From an uncultured Spirochaetota bacterium (lineage in GTDB: Bacteria > Spirochaetota > UBA4802 > UBA5550), in assembly GCA_937872225.1 (NCBI GenBank), contig CALMRZ010000038.1:1-64000 (forward strand): a stretch of DNA of 64,000 bases, written 5' to 3'. The notes under the pieces were generated by a model. That model was not told where the DNA came from and did not search any database. It worked only from the letters and a program-made list of their open reading frames with translations. Within the stretch, counting starts at the first letter, position 1. Each line of letters begins with the position of its first letter. The position numbers and the translations under genes are program-made. Below, piece by piece: positions 1 through 12,085 of this stretch.

Positions 1-1263
1 CCGCCCTGGGAGGAAGTCGAGGTCATCGAAGAGGGATCGGCGGTCACCGACGGCTCCTTCACAACCTTCCGGATGAAGATCGGGCCTTTGACAATACCAT
101 GGACGGCCCGTCACTGCGATATCATCCCCGGCAGGCAATTTGCCGACGTCCAGGTTTGGGGGCCCTTTTCCTCATGGCGGCACGAGCATCACTTCATACC
201 GGAAACCGACAGCTCCAGTTTTCTGGAAGACCGGATACAATACCGATTCAGATTCCACTTCATCAGCAGGTTTATCATCGGCCGCTACATACGTAACAAG
301 ATAGAGAGGATGTTCGAATACCGCCACCGGGTAACCCTCGATGATACGCTCCTCCGGCAGGGGCGCCGCCCCCTGGGCATAGCCGTCACCGGGGCGAACG
401 GCATCATAGGCAGAAGTCTGCTCCCGTTCCTCCGAACCCAGGGGCACCGTGTCACCGCCCTGTCCCGCGGGGACGGGGACGCGTCCTGGGACCCTATCCG
501 CGGCATCATCAGGCATGATTTCAGCGGCGACGACGCAGTCATCCACCTTGCCGGGGAGCCCATCGGCGAAGGGGCCTGGACAAAAAAGAAAATGACGGCC
601 ATCATCGAAAGCCGCGTGAAAGGCACCCGCCTCATCGCGGAGAAGCTGGCCGCCATGGAAAAGCCGCCGTCAACCCTCATATGCGCCTCGGCCGTGGGTT
701 TTTACGGCAATCGCGGCGGCGCCCTGATGACCGAGGAGGACGGCCCCGGCAGGGACTTCATATCTGGGGTCTGCCGCGCCTGGGAGGCCGCGGCCAGGCC
801 GGCCGCGGACCGCGGCATCCGCGTGGTGTTCCTCCGTATCGGCGTGGCGCTCCATCCCGGCGGCGGCGCCCTGAAACGCTACCTCCCGGCGGCGCGCCTC
901 GGCCTCGGCGGAAAGATGGGACGCGGCAATCAATACATCAGCTGGATATCCATGGAAGACGTCATAGGCGCGATTGAACACCTTCTGTTTGCCGGGGCCG
1001 TCCGGGGGCCCGTCAACCTGGCCGCGCCGGAGCCGGTCACCAACGCCGGCTTTGTCCGTACCCTTGCCGGGGTATTGGGAAAGCCGGCCCTTCTCACCGT
1101 CCCGGCCCCTTTCATCCGCCTCTTCTACGGCAGGATGGGGCGGGAGGTCATCCTGTCCAGCACCAGAGTATCTTCGAAAAAACTCGTCGATTCCGGATAT
1201 CGCTTCAGGCATGAAAAGCTCGGGGATGCCCTTCATTTTTTGCTTGGTTTATACCGGCCGTGA
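1..1263 (+). CDS. TIGR01777-type SDR epimerase with N-terminal SRPBCC domain (5' end outside the window)
   Basis: The reading frame is open from base 1, and the residues before the first in-window ATG (73) belong to the SRPBCC (polyketide-cyclase-like) domain, so the gene begins upstream of the window. The SRPBCC part, with the typical GPF..W.H.H.F pattern, runs to about in-window residue 105. It is followed by an extended-SDR Rossmann domain whose nucleotide-binding motif is GANGIIG (near base 395), then the SAVGFYG and C-terminal VNLAAPEPVTN motifs of the YfcH/TIGR01777 family. These proteins are cytosolic and probably bind NAD(P); no substrate is established for the fusion. The next gene starts 50 bases downstream on the same strand, so co-transcription is plausible. 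Family assignment is firm; function is not. Confidence 0.88.
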   Translation, partial: PPWEEVEVIEEGSAVTDGSFTTFRMKIGPLTIPWTARHCDIIPGRQFADVQVWGPFSSWRHEHHFIPETDSSSFLEDRIQYRFRFHFISRFIIGRYIRNKIERMFEYRHRVTLDDTLLRQGRRPLGIAVTGANGIIGRSLLPFLRTQGHRVTALSRGDGDASWDPIRGIIRHDFSGDDAVIHLAGEPIGEGAWTKKKMTAIIESRVKGTRLIAEKLAAMEKPPSTLICASAVGFYGNRGGALMTEEDGPGRDFISGVCRAWEAAARPAADRGIRVVFLRIGVALHPGGGALKRYLPAARLGLGGKMGRGNQYISWISMEDVIGAIEHLLFAGAVRGPVNLAAPEPVTNAGFVRTLAGVLGKPALLTVPAPFIRLFYGRMGREVILSSTRVSSKKLVDSGYRFRHEKLGDALHFLLGLYRP

Positions 1264-1313
1264 AATTATAGTGCCCGCTGGTCCGCCCGGCCGGAGGCAC
1301 CGCAGGAAATGCC

Positions 1314-2399
1314 ATGAACCGTATGACAAAAATAATCCTTATCGTCACCATGACCGCCGCCCTGGTTTTCGGGTTCCTTCACCTGTTCATGCCGGGCGTT
1401 AATTTCGAGCGCCTTCATATATTTCTCTTCAACCTCTGCAGCGGCGGCTCCTTCATTCTCATTTACTCAGAGGGGAAAAAATCCTTTTCACCGAAAACGG
1501 CATCATTTTATATCCTCTCTGTTCTTTATGCCCTCTTCGCCTTTTTCCAGATGTACCTATACGCCATAGTTATCGCCGTCATCCTCGCCCTCCTGGTGGA
1601 AACGATCAGGTCAGCCAGGTTTTCCTTTTTCCCCCGGGATTTTTTCAGCGGTACGGCGCCGATCGGGGCGAAGTTCCACCAGGCTTCTCTCCTTTGCCTG
1701 TCGCTGGGACTTGTCATCTCCTCCCTGGTCATAGGCAACCATGAATACTGGCGGATATTCTTGTCGCCAAAGCTGACCCTGGACATATTTTTCCTCGGAT
1801 TCTCCTTTCCCGTCTCCCTGATCACCATGTCGGTGATGTTCGGTATGATGGAGGGTGCCGGAGGACGATGGACCCGCGTTTTCAAGGAATACAGCTTCTG
1901 GGCCGTCAACCTCGGGGTCATCACGTTTTTCCTTTTCATAATCCTGGAGCTGGCCAGGGCCGAGCTCGCCATCGCCCTGGCCCTTTTCGTCACGGTCGTC
2001 ATCGTCTTTGTCCTTTACATGAAGCTGGGGGCGCCCCGGCAATCCAAGGCCTTTCTCACCTCGGGAGCGGTCTTCCTGATAATGACGGCCGTCACGGGGA
2101 TCGCCTATATCATTCTCTACGCGGCCATCCCGCATCCGCCGGGCGGGAAGCTCCTGCTGAAGCTGCACGCCCTCGTATCGCTCTACGGCTGGAACCTGAA
2201 CGGCCTGGCGGTCATCGGCCGGTATGACGATTTCCCGATAAAGCTGAATTCCGGCCGGATCATCCTGATGCACTGGATCATAGTCGTGGCGCTGGCCCCC
2301 CTCGGATTCTACTTCCGCGCCCTGTCCATTGTCGCGGTTGCGGCCTACGCGGTATTCCTGTATCTTGTATTTTTTACCGAGAAAATATCAAAAACATAA
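1314..2399 (+). CDS. multi-pass integral membrane protein, family not recognised
   Basis: This 361-residue protein is almost entirely hydrophobic, with about ten predicted membrane segments, short loops and an uncleaved N-terminal helix. The start ATG is preceded by a plausible ribosome-binding site (CAGGAA, six bases upstream). Several histidines lie in or next to membrane segments, including one in a KLHALVSLYGWN motif near residue 295, a pattern that recalls haem-binding membrane proteins; that resemblance is a guess. It sits just downstream of the SDR epimerase in the same direction and has no soluble domain that would suggest enzymatic activity. No function can be given. Confidence 0.75.
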   Translation: MNRMTKIILIVTMTAALVFGFLHLFMPGVNFERLHIFLFNLCSGGSFILIYSEGKKSFSPKTASFYILSVLYALFAFFQMYLYAIVIAVILALLVETIRSARFSFFPRDFFSGTAPIGAKFHQASLLCLSLGLVISSLVIGNHEYWRIFLSPKLTLDIFFLGFSFPVSLITMSVMFGMMEGAGGRWTRVFKEYSFWAVNLGVITFFLFIILELARAELAIALALFVTVVIVFVLYMKLGAPRQSKAFLTSGAVFLIMTAVTGIAYIILYAAIPHPPGGKLLLKLHALVSLYGWNLNGLAVIGRYDDFPIKLNSGRIILMHWIIVVALAPLGFYFRALSIVAVAAYAVFLYLVFFTEKISKT

Positions 2400-2431
2400 C
2401 CCGGCACATCCTGTCTGAATCGTCTCTCAAT

Positions 2432-2457
2432 AAAAAAGGGCCGTCTATCGACAGCCC
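2432..2457 (-). terminator. rho-independent terminator of the TMEM43-like gene
   Basis: Read on the minus strand, an 8-bp stem (GGGCTGTC with GACGGCCC, one G-U pair) with a four-base loop is followed by six T residues. It lies 30 bases past the stop codon of the minus-strand gene ending at 2487 and also separates it from the convergent gene ending at 2399. Confidence 0.8.
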
Positions 2458-2486
2458 CTTCGGTATTCGTTCCGATTGGTATCGGC

Positions 2487-3581
2487 TTACGCGGTCGCCG
2501 GCTTTTTCATCTTCCTGATGACAATCATCGCCACAACCCCCGCGATGATCAGTATCAGCCACAGGAACCAGAGCTTGATGAGCCAGTAGAAGAGTGCCGA
2601 GATAACGAGGGCGATGATGGTGAGGACCACCCTGATCGCGCCCGCACCGAGATCGCCCAGGAAGGGTATGAACTCAAGGAGCGTGGTCAACGGTCCCGCC
2701 ATGCCGTTCAGGCCGATGGCCATGAGGATGAAGCCGCCGAAGAAGAAGAGGATACCCTTCATCTTGTCTTCCGATTTTAATCCCTGTATCAGGGCGTCAA
2801 AGCTGCCGGTCCCGCCGGCCAGCTTGGTCTCCTTGCCCGATTCAAAGGGGATGATGCTCTTGCCGCTCACGCCGCCGGCAAAGGTGTACTCCACTCCCGA
2901 GGGCTGCGCTGTATAGTTGATCCGCTTGTCCCCCAGGACCGGCGCCCCTTCCTTTCCCTTGACATACTTGGAGCCCATGTCCTTTGATCCTGAGTAAAAA
3001 GAGACAGATTTCACGTCAATGGCATAGCCCTTGACCTGGCAATTATTGGCGTAAATTGAAGTGGCCTTCTCTTCCAGAGTGGGGTTCTGCACATTGGGGT
3101 TCACCCTGTTGTTGTTGCAGAAGGTCTGCCACTTGTCCTGTTTAAAGCTCGAGATCGGCTTTGGATCGCCGGTCCATTCCAGCGCGTAGGAATAGGTCTT
3201 GGTCGTGGTGGTCTTCTTGCTCGCGACGCCTGTCCGCTCTTTCTTTGACTCTTCTTTAACGTGTTCGACCCAGGCATACACCTGGGGAGTCTTCGATATC
3301 ACCAGGTAGTCACCCACGGCGACATTGGGAGGATCGCCGATCTTTTCCGCGGTGGCAATGCCGGTTACATAGGCCGGCTTGCCCGACTTGGCCTGTTCGA
3401 CCGGAACGGCCTCTTTGAGCACCTTGCCCCACATGACCCTGGTGGCTCCGCAGTACAGCACCGGAAATGCCGCTATGAAGCAGATAAGGCCGATAAAAAC
3501 GCCTTTAATGGACGAACCGAGCTGGCTCAGCGGGCCCTCGGTTGTTACGGTAGTATCGCTCATGCCGCTGTCATCAACCAT
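2487..3581 (-). CDS. TMEM43/LUMA-family membrane protein
   Basis: The 364-residue product has one N-terminal membrane segment (about residues 25-47), a large extracytoplasmic region, and three to four C-terminal membrane segments ending in a basic tail. This is the architecture of the TMEM43/DUF1625 family, which also contains the GDYLVI.. and VKS..F.. stretches of the central domain. I chose the ATG at 3581 because AGAGGAGG lies seven bases upstream; a longer frame to 3659 lacks such a site. The role of bacterial members is unknown. The gene is monocistronic: terminator at 2432-2457 and a divergent gene beyond 3900. Family assignment is moderately sure. Confidence 0.75.
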   Translation of the reverse strand: MVDDSGMSDTTVTTEGPLSQLGSSIKGVFIGLICFIAAFPVLYCGATRVMWGKVLKEAVPVEQAKSGKPAYVTGIATAEKIGDPPNVAVGDYLVISKTPQVYAWVEHVKEESKKERTGVASKKTTTTKTYSYALEWTGDPKPISSFKQDKWQTFCNNNRVNPNVQNPTLEEKATSIYANNCQVKGYAIDVKSVSFYSGSKDMGSKYVKGKEGAPVLGDKRINYTAQPSGVEYTFAGGVSGKSIIPFESGKETKLAGGTGSFDALIQGLKSEDKMKGILFFFGGFILMAIGLNGMAGPLTTLLEFIPFLGDLGAGAIRVVLTIIALVISALFYWLIKLWFLWLILIIAGVVAMIVIRKMKKPATA

Positions 3582-3905
3582 AATGAATCCTCCTCTTATT
3601 GTATTAAACTCTTCCGGGGTGAACTGCATGCCGCCGGAAGCAACTGCATGCAAGGTCACGAACCATTTAGAATCGACGGGTATAAGCTAGGTCACAGTCA
3701 CGCACAAATGTCAAGAATTTAAATGTTACGATCATTCCATCCGCCGTTTCCGGCGCATGAATTCAAAATATTTCTCTTTCCCCATCAATTCTACTTGAAA
3801 AATATATAGTATGGATATTGTATGAATACTAGCCCGCGCCTCCGGCGCGGGTACGCGTTAATACGGTATTTTTAACCGCATCCATGGAACCAGCGAATAA
3901 TCCCA
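3582..3905. other. intergenic region between divergent genes, with a GC-rich hairpin
   Basis: No gene is visible in these 324 bases. The sequence AACTGCATGC occurs twice within 30 bases (near 3620-3650). A perfect 8-bp stem with a three-base loop (CCCGCGCC/GGCGCGGG, 3833-3851) stands 55 bases before the next gene and is not followed by a T-run, so it is not an ordinary terminator. An AT-rich stretch at 3795-3830 probably holds the promoter of the metal-transport genes, but no clear -35/-10 pair could be fixed. Confidence 0.5.
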
Positions 3906-5195
3906 ATGACCGACCGGGCCCGACATACGTCCTTCGTATACCTTTCCCAGATCATCAACCTGCCGGTTGTCGACGTGAAGAGCGTCAAGATCGGCAGGCT
4001 CTATGATGTTATTGCCGATGTCCACGGCATGTATCCCAGGATCAACGCCCTCGTCGTGCGGAAGGGAGTAAGAAAAAAACTCATCTATTATCCGTGGAAA
4101 TGCATTCACAATATCCTGGAGGACAGGCTTGTCGTCATTGAAGACTCCGACCGCGCCCAGGAGCCCTTCAAGCTCTCCGCCAACGAACTGAGGCTGCGGG
4201 AGACCTTCTGGGACAGGCAGATAGTCGACATCGCCGGGTCCAAGGTGGTCCGGGTGAACGACCTGCACATCCTGAAGGACGGCATCAAGCTCTGGCTCGT
4301 CCACGTCGATGTGGGGTTCAAGGGCCTTCTCCGGAGGCTCGGCTGGCTCAGGTTCTTCAATTCCGCGGTGAAATGGCTCTTCGCCTACGAGCTGAAGGAC
4401 AAGTTCATATCATGGAAATTCGTCCAGCCCATTACCGCGGTGGACGACGTCCGGTCCCTTTCCCTCAGGGTGCCGTCGTCCAAGCTGTCGCAGCTCCACC
4501 CGGCTGACCTGGCGGACATCCTCATCGACCTGGGCGCCGAGGAGCGGATGCTCATATTCAATTCCTTTGACGACGCCACCGCTTCGGACATCCTCCAGGA
4601 GCTGCCGCTAAAGATGCGGCTCATGATGGCGAAGTCCCTCGAGCACGACCGCCTGGCGCGGATACTCGACGAAACGCCCATGGACGAAGTCGTCGACCTG
4701 CTCGACGAAATGCCCTACGAGACCGTGAGCGCACTGTTCAAGCTGCTCCCGGAGGAGAAGGTCGCCCAGATCAAGACCCTTCTCAAGCATTCCGACCGCA
4801 TCGCCGGCAGTCTCATGAACACTGAGTTCGTGTCTGCGCAGGAAAACGAGACCGCGGCAAAGGTCCTCAGGAGGATCAAGAAAGTCGCCGAGGACATTGA
4901 ATCGATCTATTACATCTACGTGCTGAACGACCGGGACGTTCCCATAGGCGTCCTCACCCTGAAACAGCTTCTCCGGGCCGGGGCCAAGACGCCCATGCGG
5001 GAAATAATGAGGGAAAACGTCGTCAGGGTCAAGATCGACACCCACATCAAGCTGGTGGCCCAGATATTCTACAAGTACAACTTCACCGTGGTGCCCGTGG
5101 TCGACGAGTTCGACCGGATCCAGGGCATCATCACCATAAAGGACGCCCTCGAGCCCGTGTTCCCTGAAATCCGCGAGGAGACCGAAGAAGTGTAA
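3906..5195 (+). CDS. PRC-barrel / MgtE N-domain / CBS-pair protein, likely cytosolic regulator of the adjacent Nramp transporter
   Basis: The 429 residues show PRC-barrel-like segments in the first ~185 residues (start FVYLSQIINLPVVDV), then a superhelical MgtE-type N domain (about residues 190-310, with HPADLADIL and the junction AGSLMNTEFVS) and a CBS pair (about 310-425). The membrane domain that normally follows in MgtE Mg2+ channels is absent and no membrane segment is present. In MgtE these cytosolic domains sense Mg2+ and, in some members, ATP. The stop codon overlaps the start of the Nramp gene by one base (TAATG), so the two products are translationally coupled and probably act together. 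Regulation of the transporter is inference from context. Confidence 0.82.
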   Translation: MTDRARHTSFVYLSQIINLPVVDVKSVKIGRLYDVIADVHGMYPRINALVVRKGVRKKLIYYPWKCIHNILEDRLVVIEDSDRAQEPFKLSANELRLRETFWDRQIVDIAGSKVVRVNDLHILKDGIKLWLVHVDVGFKGLLRRLGWLRFFNSAVKWLFAYELKDKFISWKFVQPITAVDDVRSLSLRVPSSKLSQLHPADLADILIDLGAEERMLIFNSFDDATASDILQELPLKMRLMMAKSLEHDRLARILDETPMDEVVDLLDEMPYETVSALFKLLPEEKVAQIKTLLKHSDRIAGSLMNTEFVSAQENETAAKVLRRIKKVAEDIESIYYIYVLNDRDVPIGVLTLKQLLRAGAKTPMREIMRENVVRVKIDTHIKLVAQIFYKYNFTVVPVVDEFDRIQGIITIKDALEPVFPEIREETEEV

Positions 5196-6451
5196 TGAAA
5201 TTAATCGAATCGTTAAAATCAAACCACCGGGTGCAGAGGCTCGTTATTTTCCTTTCCGTCATGGGGCCCGGGATCATCACGGCCAACGTGGACAATGACG
5301 CCGGCGGCATCACCACCTATTCCCTCGCGGGCGCCAATTTCAAGTACTCCCTGCTCTGGACCCTTATACCGATTACCGTCGCCCTGGTCCTGGTTCAGGA
5401 AATGTGCAACCGCATGGGTGTCATAACCGGCAAGGGCCTCTCCGACCTGATCAGGGAGAAGTTCGGCGTGAAGATCACGTTTTACCTGATGATCATGATA
5501 CTGCTGACCAACTTCGGCAACATCATATCGGAGTTCGCCGGCATCGCGGCGAGCCTTGAGCTCTTCGGCGTCAGCAAGTACGTGTCGGTGCCCGCCGGGG
5601 CCTGCATCGTCTGGTATATCGTCGTCAAGGGGTCGTACAAGTCCGTTGAGAAGGTGTTCCTCTTCGCGTGCGTCTTCTATATCAGCTATATCATATCCGG
5701 GTACATGGTGGAACAGCCGTGGCGCGAGATCATGGGCGAGGTCATACGGCCGCGCATCGACTTCAAGTTCGACTATCTCCTCGCCTGCGTCGGCGTCATC
5801 GGGACGACCATCGCGCCGTGGATGCAGTTCTACCAGCAGGCCTCGGTGGCGGAAAAGGGGATACAGGCCGAGAACTACGGCTACTCGAAAATAGACACCA
5901 TTGTCGGCTGCATCGTCGTCAACATCGTAGCCTTCTTCATAATCGTCGTGTGCGGGACGGTCCTCTTCAGCGGCCACGGGCAGCAGCCGATCAAGACCGC
6001 CGCGGACGCGGCCAGCGCCCTGCGCCCCCTGGCGGGCGACTACTGCTATTATCTCTTCGCCCTCGGCCTTCTCAACGCGTCACTTTTCGCGGCCTCGATA
6101 CTCCCCCTGTCCACGGCCTACAGCGTGTGCGAGAGCTTCGGGTGGGAGACGGGGGTGGACAAGAACTTCACCGAGGCCCCCCAGTTCTACATCCTCTACA
6201 CGCTCCTTATATTCATCGGGGCCGGGATCATCCTCTTCCCCGACATCCCCCTCATCAGGATCATGATGATATCCCAGGTCATCAACGGGCTCGCCCTTCC
6301 CTTTGTCCTGGTCTGCATGCTCATCATCATCAACGACCGGAAGATCATGCGTGAATATGTCAACTCGAAGTTCTACAACGTGATCGTGGTCGTTTTCACG
6401 GCCGCCATATCCGTTCTTTCCCTGCTGCTTGTCATCAGCTCCGCATGGTAG
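5195..6451 (+). CDS. Nramp-family divalent metal transporter with altered metal site
   Basis: The 418-residue membrane protein has about 11 hydrophobic segments and the Nramp (SLC11) fold signature GPGIIT at the start of TM1. The usual DPGN metal motif of TM1 reads DAGG (residues 35-38) and the TM6 motif that is normally MPH reads APW (207-209), so both the Asn and Met ligands are lost. Altered ligands at these positions are, as I recall, found in Nramp-related Mg2+ transporters, and the coupled MgtE-like protein upstream points the same way. I therefore would not call this mntH. Substrate (Mg2+ rather than Mn2+/Fe2+) is inference. It is the second gene of a two-gene operon. Confidence 0.85.
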   Translation: MKLIESLKSNHRVQRLVIFLSVMGPGIITANVDNDAGGITTYSLAGANFKYSLLWTLIPITVALVLVQEMCNRMGVITGKGLSDLIREKFGVKITFYLMIMILLTNFGNIISEFAGIAASLELFGVSKYVSVPAGACIVWYIVVKGSYKSVEKVFLFACVFYISYIISGYMVEQPWREIMGEVIRPRIDFKFDYLLACVGVIGTTIAPWMQFYQQASVAEKGIQAENYGYSKIDTIVGCIVVNIVAFFIIVVCGTVLFSGHGQQPIKTAADAASALRPLAGDYCYYLFALGLLNASLFAASILPLSTAYSVCESFGWETGVDKNFTEAPQFYILYTLLIFIGAGIILFPDIPLIRIMMISQVINGLALPFVLVCMLIIINDRKIMREYVNSKFYNVIVVVFTAAISVLSLLLVISSAW

Positions 6452-6511
6452 CCCCGGGCGGACGGTTGAGAGCGCCCCGCACCGGCAACTGGTGACGGTG
6501 AAATTATTATC

Positions 6512-6540
6512 TTGACATATTCATGGAACCGTATGGCAAT
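6512..6540 (+). promoter_or_regulatory. possible sigma-70 promoter of the hybrid kinase gene
   Basis: A perfect -35 box TTGACA (6512-6517) is followed after 17 bases by GGCAAT (6535-6540), a weak -10 match. It lies 100 bases before the start codon at 6640. Only the -35 box is convincing. Confidence 0.3.
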
Positions 6541-6639
6541 TATTTCCAGGTGACGCGTTTACATTGAACGCCGGATGAGGCGGTCCCCATTCGTCCGGGA
6601 CGGCGCGGGAATCGAAATAACATTAAACGACAAACAGAC

Positions 6640-9141
6640 ATGCGGGCACACCCCTTACGGGCAATAACCGGATACTTTCTGCACAAGTATCAGAACAAAG
6701 ATTTCATCCTCCTGCAGAAAGCGAGGATCGTGTTTACGATCTGCGGGACAATCCTGGTCTTCATCATACCGATATATCTCTTATTTTCTTTCTATCTCGG
6801 ATGGGGGTTATATTACAAAGTCCCGATACTCATGCTTGCGGCTGCCATCGTCATCACATTATTCCTGCTGCGGTCCGGCAGGCTACTCATCGCCTCCCAC
6901 ACCTTTCTCGCCGTCACCTTTTCAGTCCTCTGGTCATATTTTTTCATCAACATCGGCAGCGGCGATTATTTTGAACGGATGCTGTCGGCCGTGCTCGTCC
7001 TGGGCCTCCTCACCTTCACTCCCCTCATCGTGGACCGGATGACCCATGTCATCATATTCTATTATTCGGTCAACATTGTCATACTCGCCGTTTTCATCGT
7101 CGTAATCAATAACCGCGCCGCTATACCCGGGTCAGTGCTGATCTCCTATGCAGTTGACACCATGACCGCCTTTATCATGAGCGGAGCGATATCGTACCAT
7201 ATATATTCAATAAACCGCCTGGCACTCGACAAGGCCAAGGCGGCCGAAGACGAGATCAGGAAGAGCGAAGAGCTGTTCCGCGGCATCATCGAGGAGTCCC
7301 CCCAGATCATGGCCATCGTCAACGAAGACGGTTCCCTTGACTTCATGGGCAGGTCCCATGACACGGTCTTCGGTTACACGAAGGAAGACCTGCCCACCAT
7401 CGACCGGTGGTGGGAACTGGCCTACCCGGACGATGGTTACCGGACCCTCATCAAGAACGAATGGGACCTTATCGTCAGCCATTCAGGAAGGAGCAATGCC
7501 CTGAACACCATCGAGACAAAGGTGCAGGCAAAGAACGGGATACCGCAGGACGCCATGATCCGGTACGCGCGCCTGGGCCAGAGCGGCAGGGGCCTCATGC
7601 TCCTGGACAACATCACCAACAGGAAAATCATCGAACGCTCGCTCCTGGCTTCCGAACGGCGGTACCGCAAGCTCTACGACAGCATGCTCGACGGTTTCGT
7701 GAGCCTGGACATGAACGGCAGGGTCATCGAATTCAACTCGGCGTACCAGCAGATCACCGGGTACCCGCCCGAAGAGCTGTATTCCCTGACGGTATGGAAC
7801 CTGACCCCTCCCCGCTGGCATGATTTGCAGAAGAAGATCATACAGGAACAGGTCCTTCCCAGGGGCCACTCCGACCTGTTCGAAAAGGAATACAGGAGAA
7901 AGGACGGCGCCCTGGTGCCGGTCGAGCTCAGGATATACCTCATCCAGGACGAAAACGGCAACAACACGGGCATGTGGTCCATCGTCCACGACATCACCAA
8001 GCGCAAGCAGACGGAAAACGAGCTCCTCAAGACAAGCAAGATCGAATCGCTGGGAATCTTTGCCGGCGGCATCGCCCATGACTTCAACAACCTGCTGACC
8101 GCCATCATGGGAAACATATCCATCGCCAAGCTCGACTGCCCCGCAGATTCAAAGAATTTCGAGATACTCACCGAGGCGGAAAAGGCTTCGGAGCGGGCGA
8201 AAGACCTTACGATGCAGCTCCTGACCTTCTCCAAGGGAGGGGCCCCCATAAAGAAGATCGCCTCAATCCGGGACCTTCTCGTGGACACGGCCGATTTCGT
8301 GCTGCGCGGGTCCCAGATAAAAAGCATCTTCGACATACCGGACAACCTGTGGAACGCCGAGGTCGACGAGGGCCAGATCAGCCAGGTGATACACAACCTG
8401 GTCCTGAACTGCCGCGAGGCCATGCCGGGCGGCGGCATCGTGACGGTTTCGGCTGAAAACCGCGTCATCACGTCCAAGGACAACCTCCCCTTTTCGCCGG
8501 GGAACTACTTGGCGATAAAAATTTCGGATACGGGATACGGCATCCCCAAGAAGCACCTGCACAAGATATTCGACCCGTTTTTCACGACGAAGGAAAAGGG
8601 AAGCGGCCTCGGGCTTTCGGTGACCTATTCCATCATCAGAAAGCACAACGGCTACATCAATGTTGAATCAACCGAACAGAAAGGAACCTGCTTCACCATA
8701 TACCTTCCCGCGACGGAGCAGACCGTTGCGCCGGCCGCAAGCCACCCGTACCACAAGAGCCTGAACGGCGGCAGGGTCCTGGTCATGGACGACGATGACA
8801 TGGTCCTCGAGGTTGGCAGGAAAATACTGGGCCGGCTCGGCTTCGAGACCGTGGGAGCGCACGACGGCAAACAGGCCATAGAGCTCTACAAGACCGCGCA
8901 ACAGTCCGGCAGGCCCTTCGATTTCGTCATCATGGACCTGACGGTCCCCGGGGGCATGGGCGGCAAGGAAGCCATCATCATACTCAGGGAGCTTGACCCC
9001 TCGGTCAAGGCCATCGTCTCGAGCGGCTATTCCATCGACCCGGTCATGGCCGATTACCGGTCCTTCGGTTTCTGCGGTGTCGTGGCCAAGCCCTATGCCG
9101 TCGATGACCTTAAAGCAGTGATCCAGAGCATAATGGAATGA
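6640..9141 (+). CDS. hybrid sensor histidine kinase (membrane sensor, two PAS, HisKA/HATPase, receiver)
   Basis: The 833-residue protein has about six N-terminal membrane segments (residues 30-195), a short coiled coil, two PAS domains (about 205-335 and 340-465), a dimerisation/phosphoacceptor domain with GGIAHDFNNLL (His480), an ATPase domain with N, G1 (SDTGYGIP), F (FDPFFTTK) and G2 (GSGLGLS) boxes, and a C-terminal receiver with MDDDD, phospho-acceptor Asp766, SSGYS and KPY. It should autophosphorylate at His480 and relay to Asp766; no partner response regulator with a DNA-binding domain is nearby. No clear ribosome-binding site precedes the ATG at 6640, so the start is uncertain. Its stop overlaps the next gene by four bases. 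Confidence 0.93.
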   Translation: MRAHPLRAITGYFLHKYQNKDFILLQKARIVFTICGTILVFIIPIYLLFSFYLGWGLYYKVPILMLAAAIVITLFLLRSGRLLIASHTFLAVTFSVLWSYFFINIGSGDYFERMLSAVLVLGLLTFTPLIVDRMTHVIIFYYSVNIVILAVFIVVINNRAAIPGSVLISYAVDTMTAFIMSGAISYHIYSINRLALDKAKAAEDEIRKSEELFRGIIEESPQIMAIVNEDGSLDFMGRSHDTVFGYTKEDLPTIDRWWELAYPDDGYRTLIKNEWDLIVSHSGRSNALNTIETKVQAKNGIPQDAMIRYARLGQSGRGLMLLDNITNRKIIERSLLASERRYRKLYDSMLDGFVSLDMNGRVIEFNSAYQQITGYPPEELYSLTVWNLTPPRWHDLQKKIIQEQVLPRGHSDLFEKEYRRKDGALVPVELRIYLIQDENGNNTGMWSIVHDITKRKQTENELLKTSKIESLGIFAGGIAHDFNNLLTAIMGNISIAKLDCPADSKNFEILTEAEKASERAKDLTMQLLTFSKGGAPIKKIASIRDLLVDTADFVLRGSQIKSIFDIPDNLWNAEVDEGQISQVIHNLVLNCREAMPGGGIVTVSAENRVITSKDNLPFSPGNYLAIKISDTGYGIPKKHLHKIFDPFFTTKEKGSGLGLSVTYSIIRKHNGYINVESTEQKGTCFTIYLPATEQTVAPAASHPYHKSLNGGRVLVMDDDDMVLEVGRKILGRLGFETVGAHDGKQAIELYKTAQQSGRPFDFVIMDLTVPGGMGGKEAIIILRELDPSVKAIVSSGYSIDPVMADYRSFGFCGVVAKPYAVDDLKAVIQSIME

Positions 9142-9704
9142 ACGAAACCGACCTCAGGCGCTGGGCCATTTTCTCCGACACCCACGGGAACCTTGACGCC
9201 ATGAGGGACGCCCTGGCGAAGGCCGGGCCCTTCAGCGCCATGATACATCTCGGCGACGGGGTCCTCGACGCGTCCGCGGTAGCCCGGGAACGTTCACTGC
9301 CGCTGACAGCGGTGGCCGGTAACGAAGACGGCGTCTCGGAATACCCGGAACGCGCGTGCCTGGCGATGGGCGGCTGCATGGCACTGCTTCTCCATGGACA
9401 CCGGCTGGACCTCAACCCGTACCAGCCGTCCGTTATATGGGAAAAGCAGTACGCAGCCATGGACGCCCTCATGGCCGTTTCCGGGGCCCGGGTCCTCCTT
9501 TTCGGCCATACCCATGTGCCGGTATTGCGGCGCACGGATCACGGCATCATCTGCAACCCCGGAAATCACTTTGCCGGCTCGCAAACGCCGCACACCTTTG
9601 CCATCGCCGAAACTGCCGGGGACGGCCTGAAGGTCTGCCTGGCCATGAAGGGCAACGGGGGATGGATCATAACGGACGAGGCGTCGATACGCGCCTCCGA
9701 CTGA
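9138..9704 (+). CDS. YfcE/MJ0936-type metallophosphoesterase
   Basis: The 188-residue protein carries the calcineurin-like phosphoesterase motifs in order: SDTHGN, LGDG, GNED (usually GNCD), HGH and GHTH, which bind two divalent metals. Members act as phosphodiesterases in the cytosol; the substrate here is unknown. The start ATG overlaps the stop of the hybrid kinase (ATGA), so the two are translationally coupled, which may mean it works in that signalling path, although coupling alone does not prove this. Confidence 0.9.
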   Translation: MNETDLRRWAIFSDTHGNLDAMRDALAKAGPFSAMIHLGDGVLDASAVARERSLPLTAVAGNEDGVSEYPERACLAMGGCMALLLHGHRLDLNPYQPSVIWEKQYAAMDALMAVSGARVLLFGHTHVPVLRRTDHGIICNPGNHFAGSQTPHTFAIAETAGDGLKVCLAMKGNGGWIITDEASIRASD

Positions 9705-9741
9705 CCACGGCACCCCGGCCGGATGCCATGGAAAAGAGCGG

Positions 9742-10083
9742 TCATGGCACGAAAAAGGTCTTCCTGAAGTCTTCTTCCGACATTAATTCGAATATGCTGT
9801 CAAGCTTGGATACGTCGAACAGCGTGGAGACATGGTCGGTTATGTCCAGAAACACCAGCTTGATGTCGTGCTTTTTCGCTTCCTTCGAAAACTTTATGAA
9901 AAGACCGAGGCCGGACGAATCAAGGCTGTGGAGCTTTTTGCAGTTCATCCCTATGACCTTCGGCCTGGCGGATATTTTCTCCATGATCACCCTGTCTGCA
10001 TCTTCCATGTCGTTGAAGATAAGCTCGCCGTTGAGCGATATGATGAGCACGTCTTTATGATCGGAGAAATCTATGGTAAGCAC
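9742..10083 (-). CDS. STAS-domain anti-sigma factor antagonist
   Basis: The 113-residue protein is a single STAS domain with the phosphorylation-site motif LDSSGLG (Ser56/Ser57), as in SpoIIAA and RsbV. Such proteins free a sigma factor by binding its anti-sigma kinase when dephosphorylated. The start is GTG at 10083 with GGGGG eight bases upstream. It is the last gene of the minus-strand run that begins with proA, 17 bases after the lipoprotein gene. A SpoIIE-type phosphatase that could act on such a protein lies at 33-35 kb, but no link is shown; no anti-sigma kinase is present in the window. Confidence 0.88.
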   Translation of the reverse strand: MLTIDFSDHKDVLIISLNGELIFNDMEDADRVIMEKISARPKVIGMNCKKLHSLDSSGLGLFIKFSKEAKKHDIKLVFLDITDHVSTLFDVSKLDSIFELMSEEDFRKTFFVP

Positions 10084-10100
10084 TGTCTGATACCCCCACG

Positions 10101-10580
10101 TTATTTCTTCAGGCCTGTCGACGGGACTTCCCCGCCCGACACATCCTCAATCCGGGTAAGATCTATCTTCAGCGCCATCCCGTCTATCGTCATGGCGATC
10201 TTTTTTTTCCTGCCGTTGACGGTGGCATACAGCCACACCATCGTATCGCCTTTTGTGTAGGGCGATATGCCGTCAACACGGTACGATTTCAAAACCCTGC
10301 CGGGGTTCAGGCGCTGGGTCTCGGTGAACTGGCGCACGAACAGCTCCTCATCGCTTAACCGCTGCAGGTCGGGCGTGAGCTTCTGCGTGCGCAGGGCCCG
10401 CATGAAGGCGGCGTCAGTGATCCTGTAGAGGGCCTTCCAGTCCTTCTTCTTCCATGTCTCGAAAAACTGCGTCGCCACATGGGGCGGGTCCAGGTCCTTG
10501 AGCCGGTCAGGGCCTTTTCCGCACGAAACACTGAAGGCCGCGACGGCCAGCGCCACAAGCAGGAACACGCGCCTAATCAT
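10101..10580 (-). CDS. predicted lipoprotein, NTF2-like fold possible
   Basis: The 159-residue product has a lipoprotein signal peptide with lipobox FSVSC (Cys20). The mature part begins with a helix and a FFETWKKKDWKALYRI stretch, resembling small NTF2-like/DUF4878 lipoproteins. It would be anchored in the envelope. The gene lies 21 bases after rsfS and 17 bases before the STAS gene in the same direction. Function unknown. Confidence 0.78.
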   Translation of the reverse strand: MIRRVFLLVALAVAAFSVSCGKGPDRLKDLDPPHVATQFFETWKKKDWKALYRITDAAFMRALRTQKLTPDLQRLSDEELFVRQFTETQRLNPGRVLKSYRVDGISPYTKGDTMVWLYATVNGRKKKIAMTIDGMALKIDLTRIEDVSGGEVPSTGLKK

Positions 10581-10601
10581 ATCTTTACAACCGTCCCCAC
10601 A

Positions 10602-10964
10602 TCAAAATGAAATTCTTTTAGCATCGCCCCACAGCTTCTCAAGCTGGTAATACTCCCGCAGTTCCTGGGTGAAAATGTGCACTATCAGTTCGCTGCAATC
10701 GAGGATGATCCACCCGGATTCATAATCCGGCCTGTTCCGGACGCGGAGCCCGCGGCCGTATATGAACTTTTCAAGCTCCCGCGCCAGGGAGCGGCAATGG
10801 ATCCGTGAATTGCCGGTCGTTATCAGGAAATAATCGAGATAGCTGTTGACGTCCCGCAGGTCCAGGAAAACGATCTCCGCGCCTTTCTTGTCCGACAGGA
10901 GCCGGGCGCATTCACGGTAGGTCTCCACCATCTCCTCTTCCGTTCTTTTTTTCAGGTCCGTCAC
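10602..10964 (-). CDS. rsfS: ribosomal silencing factor RsfS (YbeB/Iojap family)
   Basis: The 120-residue protein matches the RsfS family over its length: AEIVFLDLRDVNSYLDYFLI near the N-terminus, TGNSRIHCRSLA, the GYESGWIILDCSELIVHIF-like core and a C-terminal YYQLEKLWGDA. RsfS binds uL14 on the large ribosomal subunit and blocks subunit joining under starvation. The start overlaps the stop of the LCP gene by four bases. The order nadD-LCP-rsfS is typical, as RsfS and NadD genes are neighbours in many bacteria. Confidence 0.95.
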   Translation of the reverse strand: MTDLKKRTEEEMVETYRECARLLSDKKGAEIVFLDLRDVNSYLDYFLITTGNSRIHCRSLARELEKFIYGRGLRVRNRPDYESGWIILDCSELIVHIFTQELREYYQLEKLWGDAKRISF

Positions 10965-12085
10965 TTTGCAAGGTCCTCGCCGAGAATGATCATTATATTA
11001 TGCAGTTGCGTGTTGTCAATGATATGATAAATGTTCTGTATGCCTGTCAGTTCTGCCACCCTGTTTACCGCGGCCACGTTGCCCCGCCTGTTGATGATGA
11101 CTGATTTGGTCATCTTGCGGTACGGCGATGTGCCGAACTCGACCACGTTCAGCCCTTCGCGGATAAGGCTTTCCCGCATTTTTCTCGCCAGTCCCGGCGT
11201 ATCGGTGCCGTTCAGGATCTTGATCTTGATCGACGCGTCGATCTCTTTCTGGCTCTGGTCGACGATCAGGAGCGCGAGGAACTCCTTTTCGTAAATCCGG
11301 AACGTGATGTCATCCATGGCGTAATAATTATCCTTGAAGAACCCCGGCAGGACCGTCGCCATCACGTCCCCGTCCTTGAAGATGAGCTCGCATATCCCCA
11401 TGACCTCCTGGGGCAGCAGGTTTGTCTTGACCGACTTCATCATCTCGCCGATGAACCTGATATTGTTGAAGCGCTCGAGCCGCTCACGGTCCTTGTAGAG
11501 CGTCATGATCACGTCAAGGATCCGGTCGTACTTCAGGTAAATTGAATTCTCATCAACGGTATTGATGTACCGCATCACCTTCTGTCCGTCCAGGTAATTG
11601 ACGCCGAAAACCGGCGCCTGGGCGTCCCGATCCTTGTACCCGGGCTGGTCAAGGGCAAACAGTTCGACCCCCTCCATCAGGTTGACCAGGCGCTCCACGT
11701 CCGGCGCGTAAATCTCAACGTAGAAGGGGATGTTGAGCCGGAGGTCCTTCTGGAGCGAATACCGGAGCCGGTTGAAATTGAACACCACCACCTCGTCGAT
11801 GCGGGCGCAGTGGTCGCCGTCGTCATCGAGCCGTATCTTGTAGGACGGCGGGATAAAGGTTATGCCTATCCGCTTGTTGTCGGGGTTGATGCTCACGATG
11901 GCGAAAAATTTGTGCTTGTGGTCATTGTCCTTGTTGCTCCCCGCCACCAGGATGTTTATTATCTTTTTTTTCTGGATCAGCTTTTCGACGGCGTTCCTGG
12001 TCCGCACGCCGTGGCAGTAATACACGAGGAGCGAAACGAGCACCAGGAGAAGGACCGTTCCGGCTATGATAACTTTGCGTTTCAA
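10961..12085 (-). CDS. LytR-CpsA-Psr (LCP)-family protein with LytR C-terminal domain, degenerate active site
   Basis: The 374 residues comprise an N-terminal signal anchor (residues 5-25), an LCP-like domain (about 40-190) and a C-terminal LytR_C domain (about 285-370, start IKILNGTDTPGLARKM). LCP enzymes transfer glycopolymers to peptidoglycan. The sequence where the catalytic R.DT motif is expected reads KHKFF, and the SIPRDT motif reads FIPPSYK, so the usual catalytic Asp/Arg residues are missing; it may be a non-catalytic or divergent member. It overlaps nadD and rsfS by four bases each. Subcellular location is probably the outer face of the cytoplasmic membrane. Confidence 0.82.
   Translation of the reverse strand: MKRKVIIAGTVLLLVLVSLLVYYCHGVRTRNAVEKLIQKKKIINILVAGSNKDNDHKHKFFAIVSINPDNKRIGITFIPPSYKIRLDDDGDHCARIDEVVVFNFNRLRYSLQKDLRLNIPFYVEIYAPDVERLVNLMEGVELFALDQPGYKDRDAQAPVFGVNYLDGQKVMRYINTVDENSIYLKYDRILDVIMTLYKDRERLERFNNIRFIGEMMKSVKTNLLPQEVMGICELIFKDGDVMATVLPGFFKDNYYAMDDITFRIYEKEFLALLIVDQSQKEIDASIKIKILNGTDTPGLARKMRESLIREGLNVVEFGTSPYRKMTKSVIINRRGNVAAVNRVAELTGIQNIYHIIDNTQLHNIMIILGEDLAK

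Follow-up and report, generated by a model that had tools for sequence, protein, structure and literature searches.

Shin et al. (2014, PLoS Genetics, PMC4072509) reported that a gene for an MgtE cytoplasmic domain neighbours most nrmT genes, which encode NRAMP-related Mg2+ transporters (NRMTs), and proposed that its product acts in cytoplasmic feedback regulation or as a chaperone. A pair of this kind lies in the 64,000-nucleotide stretch of DNA analysed here (the window; positions 1 to 64,000 of contig CALMRZ010000038.1 from an uncultured Spirochaetota bacterium), where the gene for a soluble protein, called the sensor below, is directly followed by the gene for an NRMT-type transporter. It is a new example of a known, unexplained pair. 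The preliminary description of this DNA proposed an MgtE-type sensor that serves an Nramp-family transporter and implied that the pairing was new. The first proposal is a sensible interpretation that fits all the findings and was anticipated in 2014, with the correction that the partner is NRMT-type and not a generic Nramp pore; the second does not stand, as the pairing is described in the 2014 paper. The points that go beyond that paper, all of them from computation, are the near-obligatory pairing, the exclusion of MgtE channels, a conserved second barrel in the sensor, the exchange of the transporter under one sensor lineage, and the retention of the ligands of the N and CBS domains together with the loss of the plug ligands. 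We consider it probable (roughly 0.6) that the sensor is a trans-acting Mg2+ sensor that gives direct or indirect negative feedback on the NRMT carrier.

The MgtE channel of Thermus thermophilus (2yvx and 2zy9) shares with the window sensor the fold of the MgtE_N and CBS domains and part of the Mg2+ ligand set. The window sensor differs in that it has no pore domain and no conserved plug ligands, it carries an extra N-terminal barrel half, and its partner is a separate LeuT-fold carrier. In the CNNM/CorC Mg2+ transporters a CBS pair also controls Mg2+ transport, but it is part of the same chain, no MgtE_N domain is known there and the membrane domain is different; the window sensor matches these proteins weakly and in the CBS part only. 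EleNRMT from Eggerthella lenta (7qia) resembles the window transporter in its DxxG-TxxA site and in overall sequence, but in the available part of the paper by Ramanadane et al. (2022, PMC8806188) it was studied without a sensor partner. The nrmT operons of Shin et al. have the MgtE-cytoplasmic-domain gene upstream of nrmT, as in the window, where the two genes overlap by one base. They differ in that the window pair has no M-box riboswitch. The term 'CBS' occurs 0 times in the main text of the 2014 paper, and the available part of that paper does not report exclusion with MgtE channels. In the open-licence literature NRMT and MgtE are found together only in the 2014 and 2022 papers; no paper was found there on a PRC barrel together with MgtE or on NrmT with a CBS domain and magnesium, and no demonstration that the sensor controls the transporter. 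The features of the locus are as follows.

3906..5195, + strand: sensor gene, 429 amino acids; soluble protein with a PRC barrel, a second barrel-like domain, MgtE_N and a CBS pair
3927..4145, + strand: first PRC barrel, residues 8-80; Pfam PRC E 1.5e-5, beta-rich in the AlphaFold2 model
4182..4433, + strand: second barrel-like domain, residues 93-176; strands in the AlphaFold2 model, no Pfam family
4434..4475, + strand: linker joining the barrel half to the MgtE half, residues 177-190; low confidence, with a predicted local distance difference test score (pLDDT) <50
4494..4796, + strand: MgtE_N superhelix, residues 197-297; carries D228, D260 and D264
4797..5165, + strand: CBS pair, residues 298-420; carries D413 and N392
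5193..5197, + strand: TAATG stop/start overlap of one base
5195..6451, + strand: NRMT-type transporter gene, 418 amino acids; assigned by open reading frame, Pfam and PDB match
5297..5308, + strand: helix-1 binding-site motif DxxG, D35-A-G-G38
5804..5815, + strand: helix-6 binding-site motif TxxA, T204-T-I-A207

Conservation of the pair and exclusion of MgtE channels

The sensor and transporter genes meet at the sequence GTGTAATGAA, in which the A at 5195 is both the last base of the TAA stop and the first base of the ATG start. The preliminary description had noted this overlap and had called for a survey of the pair in other genomes, which was carried out and found high conservation, so that a lack of conservation, the first condition named there as a refutation, did not apply. 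Genome contigs were scanned with an NRMT alignment and the best 80 loci were kept. The sensor gene lies directly upstream and on the same strand at 71 of the 80, and 7 of the other 9 loci end at a contig edge, so that the sensor is found at 71 of 73 testable loci. Among 198 Spirochaetota genomes, 12 have an Nramp-family match (threshold E 1e-20); the sensor is present at 8/8 NRMT-type places and at 0/5 distant Nramp places (24-27% identity). A second sample consisted of 299 genomes of Bacillota, to which G243 belongs (this genome contains L095 and is titled Firmicutes); a match at 1e-40 or better occurs in 38 of the 299. Here the sensor stands at all 27 strong NRMT loci (E 1e-120 or better), one of them with a broken frame, and at 0/3 of the weaker Nramp loci examined. 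When the search was reversed and the barrel half of the sensor alone was used, the same 8 Spirochaetota genomes were recovered. In Bacillota the reverse search gave 31 strong places, of which 28 are beside an NRMT gene, one is at a contig end and two have no NRMT. The pairing of sensor and NRMT is nearly obligatory.

Pairs with this gene order and strand are found in several bacterial phyla, so the pair is not a chance neighbourhood, and a coincidental gene overlap was rejected on this ground. Of the 101 pairs listed, a number that counts copies of the window and duplicates, 25 have overlapping genes and 79 have genes no more than 56 bases apart; every start was set at the earliest possible codon and the number of overlaps is therefore overstated. 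Natural fusions of sensor and transporter, which the preliminary description had suggested looking for, were not found among the 80 + 30 + 8 loci read.

The genomes with the pair are also set apart by what they lack. In Spirochaetota the MgtE channel domain occurs in 0/8 genomes with the pair vs 144/190 without it (Fisher p 2e-5, with relatedness ignored), and in Bacillota in 3/27 vs 186/272 (Fisher p 6e-9, again with relatedness ignored). The Bacillota sample contains the channel in 189 of its 299 genomes, and it is present in 7 of the 11 that have a weaker Nramp match only. The contrast is also seen at close range: the Spirochaetota genus g14 includes a genome that has the pair but lacks MgtE and another with the reverse, and family f5 shows the same. 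The MgtE channel domain (PF01769) is absent from the whole genome of the window, an assembly of 4.7 Mb (95 contigs, 97.7% completeness), in which two proteins exceed the cut-off for the CorA family. In function the pair appears to stand in for MgtE, and this near-exclusion supports a role in Mg2+ supply independently of the riboswitch.

M-boxes before nrmT operons were already reported by Shin et al. (PMC4072509). Of the 48 genomes searched, 9 contain an M-box. It lies directly upstream of the sensor gene at 13 of 15 loci, one being cut by a contig end; these loci were chosen, 8 of them because the genome already had a match next to the pair.

Apart from the sensor, the window's genome encodes one other MgtE_N protein. 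It is a fusion of MgtE_N and CorA of 498 amino acids (MgtE_N E 1.6e-12, CorA E 2.7e-47; L002:1309-2805, at about 16244-17533 of contig C94 of G000), in which a third type of transporter carries the MgtE sensor domain. MgtE_N frames of similar length occur in relatives, where they were found by MgtE_N alone.

The transporter and the sensor protein

The transporter matches the Pfam family Nramp (E 3e-102). In a phmmer search against the PDB its best solved relative is EleNRMT (7qia, E 2.4e-106), while the best MntH reaches 5.8e-21. The NRMT motif DxxG-TxxA of Ramanadane et al. (PMC8806188) combines a helix-1 DxxG with a helix-6 TxxA/T. Across 88 aligned NRMTs D35, G38 and both threonines of this motif are invariant, and position 207 is Ala in 86, Cys in 1 and Thr in 1. 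An ordinary Mn/Fe Nramp was rejected, as EleNRMT is closest by far and the motif is present. By its sequence the transporter is placed among the NRAMP-related Mg2+ transporters and is predicted to import Mg2+, which would make the partner of the sensor a Mg2+ importer. The window's genome encodes no other Nramp-family protein. Four other loci (L077, L081, L082 and L091, titled Acidobacteria, Terriglobia or Terriglobales) have NDANG in helix 1 and not NDAGG.

In the sensor, Pfam finds PRC at residues 11-79 (E 1.5e-5), MgtE_N at 197-297 (E 2e-20) and two CBS stretches (E 3e-19), and the MgtE pore domain PF01769 is absent. There is no membrane segment by Kyte-Doolittle hydropathy in 19-residue windows: the highest mean is 1.13, and the number of windows above 1.6 is 0 vs 67 in the transporter. 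The upstream protein is, as first described, one with PRC, MgtE_N and CBS domains and no channel. The cytosolic domain of T. thermophilus MgtE (TtMgtE) aligns with sensor residues 191-425 (E 5e-35). In the AlphaFold2 model of the window sensor (pLDDT 84.1, predicted template modelling score (pTM) 0.43) the top fold match is this same cytosolic domain, 2yvy (Z 20.3, 236 residues, root-mean-square deviation 6.0). A degenerate or truncated MgtE gene was considered and rejected, as the sensor has a full extra N-terminal half and the pore is absent throughout the genome.

The N-terminal half has two beta-rich parts, residues 8-78 and 94-169. PF05239 (PRC) is matched by 13/13 members of sensor set A6, and the match in the window covers the first barrel only. 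The second domain shows a barrel-like strand pattern in the AlphaFold2 model and has no Pfam match; the fold search covered the MgtE half only. This second barrel-like domain is the most invariant part of the sensor. Among 74 aligned sensors there are 13 invariant columns and 8 of them fall within it (D103, Q105, R116, N118, D119, R143, R144 and W170). An amphipathic helix at residues 144-160 was considered and dropped, as its hydrophobic moments are ordinary. At two loci the sensor frame is interrupted (L057:2645-3917 and L116:193-1492). These were rejected as clean domain splits, as the frames break within MgtE_N, and they are therefore uninformative on modularity.

How much of the MgtE switch is left in the MgtE half? 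The Mg2+ ligands compared are those from nuclear magnetic resonance and channel work on TtMgtE (PMC5882242), and the ATP contacts are those given for MgtE in PMC5529423. Counts were made over 97 sensors, leaving out those cut by a contig end (L045, L050, L065, L092), those with odd or broken frames (L057, L070), loci identical to others (L017, L107) and copies of the window (L001, L003). In the window D228, D260 and D264 of MgtE_N correspond to E59, D91 and D95 of TtMgtE, D413 of the CBS pair corresponds to D247, and N392 takes the position of D226. All 97 sensors have Asp at D95 (Mg6), 77 have an acidic residue at E59 (Mg7) and only 20 have Asp at D226 (Mg5). At the D91/D247 pair (Mg4), 73 sensors carry Asp at both positions and the other 24 carry Ser together with Asn or Ser; no sensor is mixed. 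The plug-helix ligands E258 and D259 (Mg2, Mg3) are acidic in about a tenth of the sensors each; the window has E424 and E425 at these positions, within its acidic tail. Most putative ligands of the N/CBS interface are present, and those of the channel's plug helix are lost. Three positions outside the ligand list used (D32, E166 and D234) are acidic in 91-98% of the sensors, so acidic conservation as such is not specific to ligands. The ATP contacts are partly retained, with Tyr at Y170 in 79 sensors, Arg or Lys at R187 in 86 and Asp at D188 in 48. The 24 sensors that have no Asp at the Mg4 pair include L025, L030 and L049, and their named records are mostly Syntrophaceae or delta-proteobacteria.

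The role of the sensor and its alternatives

The two genes are proposed to encode a single unit for Mg2+ uptake, in which the NRMT-type carrier would bring in Mg2+ and the MgtE-type N and CBS module of the sensor would read cytosolic Mg2+ and probably also an adenine nucleotide. When Mg2+ is plentiful the sensor would restrain the carrier, and so perform in trans the task that the attached cytosolic domain has in the MgtE channel. We infer physical contact between the two proteins, a docking surface and the direction of regulation. There is a hint from modelling and distance comparison that the NRMT docks via the second barrel of the sensor. Over 97 pairs the divergence of the second barrel tracks that of the transporter best (r 0.61, partial 0.39), and the other partial correlations are 0.17 for the first barrel, 0.15 for N and 0.00 for CBS; such distance correlations can be distorted by the level of conservation and by shared ancestry. 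A related pair was also translated through the stop codon and modelled as one fold (pLDDT 88.8, pTM 0.72), and its transporter part matches 7qia (Z 53.8). That a detached MgtE gating module became a trans-acting subunit of a LeuT-fold carrier, docking by its second barrel, and replaced one-piece MgtE more than once is a tentative proposal, to which we give slightly less than an even chance.

A number of observations weigh against regulation by the sensor or limit how it could work. L073 and L079 are NRMT loci that truly lack a sensor, and two sensors (L166 and L167) have no NRMT neighbour. No M-box was found in positions 1-12000 of the window, nor in its genome in the search of 48 genomes, which used stricter filters. 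The 24 sensors without the Mg4 pair form one clade (support 1.0), which points to a single loss event. With Asn at the D226 position of the window and no conservation of the plug ligands E258 and D259, the gating geometry of MgtE is impossible here. The co-fold has no control fold or contact map, so its pTM of 0.72 is only suggestive; the comparison with the 0.43 of the window sensor alone is uncontrolled, as species, length and alignment differ. The trees do not show strict co-divergence. All 8 sensors from Spirochaetota fall in a single clade (support 0.997), but their transporters split into a clade of 5 (support 0.999) and one of 3 (0.998); in a midpoint-rooted tree the last node shared by these two clades encloses 84 of 97 sequences. 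In G097 (L009), a genome of the window's own genus, the sensor is 74% identical to that of the window and the transporter 51-52%; the locus L017 is 84% identical to the window's. Together the trees and the identities in G097 indicate at least one exchange of the transporter, in which the position behind the sensor was kept. The exchange under a conserved Spirochaetota sensor lineage appears in L009, L010 and L011 when they are compared with the window pair. There is also experimental work to consider. In Shin et al. (PMC4072509) Mg2+ import by the C. acetobutylicum transporters did not need the MgtE-like gene, co-expression of the pair from Acidobacterium capsulatum gave no added rescue, and the A. 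capsulatum transporter resembled a Mn2+ importer more. The A. capsulatum experiment asked about better rescue and not about limited uptake at high internal Mg2+, so negative feedback is not excluded by it.

The activity of the C. acetobutylicum transporters in a foreign host without the sensor protein also bears on another role, one in which a Mg2+/ATP-responsive partner aids the folding, insertion or membrane stability of the transporter, or the hand-over of metal, and does not gate it. A metal chaperone was named as an alternative by Shin et al. (PMC4072509), and conservation in the sensor is highest in the second barrel-like domain and not at the Mg2+ sites. However, the Asp kept at D95 in every sensor and at D91/D247 in 73 of 97 points to sensing, and a chaperone needs no MgtE-type switch, which makes this role unlikely in our judgement. 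It has also to be asked which metal is supplied. Mn2+ or another divalent metal, sensed by the MgtE-type module, could be argued from the A. capsulatum transporter, which gave full rescue of Mn2+-uptake mutants and rescued Mg2+-uptake mutants only with low-millimolar Mg2+ (PMC4072509), and from EleNRMT, which transports Mn2+ as well (PMC8806188). The window's genome also has no M-box, and the transporter is its sole Nramp-family protein. The NRMT motif, the M-box that precedes the pair at most of the chosen loci and the near-constant absence of MgtE channels from genomes with the pair argue for Mg2+ supply, and we hold another metal to be quite improbable. A last alternative is that the two genes share an operon for metal supply, that the proteins never touch and that the sensor regulates something else. 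The replacement of the Spirochaetota transporter under a conserved sensor lineage and the two sensors without an NRMT would be in keeping with this, but sensor and NRMT hardly ever occur one without the other, and the exchanged transporter again sits directly behind the sensor. Such an arrangement without contact is very hard to credit.

If the sensor does act as a split Mg2+ feedback device, one cytosolic sensor design would serve two unrelated membrane architectures and the carrier would be exchangeable under the sensor. The pair bears on how Mg2+ uptake is restrained in bacteria that have neither an MgtE channel nor a Mg2+ riboswitch, such as the one studied here. Should the sensor gate the NRMT, the same design would control a channel and a carrier, and the pair would be a clean system in which to study the arrest of a LeuT-fold transporter by a soluble Mg2+ sensor. 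The structure of EleNRMT was solved without such a partner, and studies of NRMT structure or transport that leave the sensor out may concern an unregulated half. The survey offers concrete targets in the invariant second barrel, the Mg4 pair and the closely related pairs with exchanged transporters.

Neighbouring genes and minor observations

The pair in the window is flanked upstream, on the opposite strand, by a gene for a TMEM43-family membrane protein (2487-3659, - strand, E 3.6e-23) and downstream by a gene for a hybrid PAS histidine kinase with a receiver domain (6640-9141, + strand). The sensor at L167 (4131-5432) is a lone gene with no adjoining transporter reading frame. The one at L166 (3523-4776) is the second sensor of G247, and 186 bases downstream of it, at 4963-6909, lies a gene that by eye encodes an APC-type permease with a long soluble tail.

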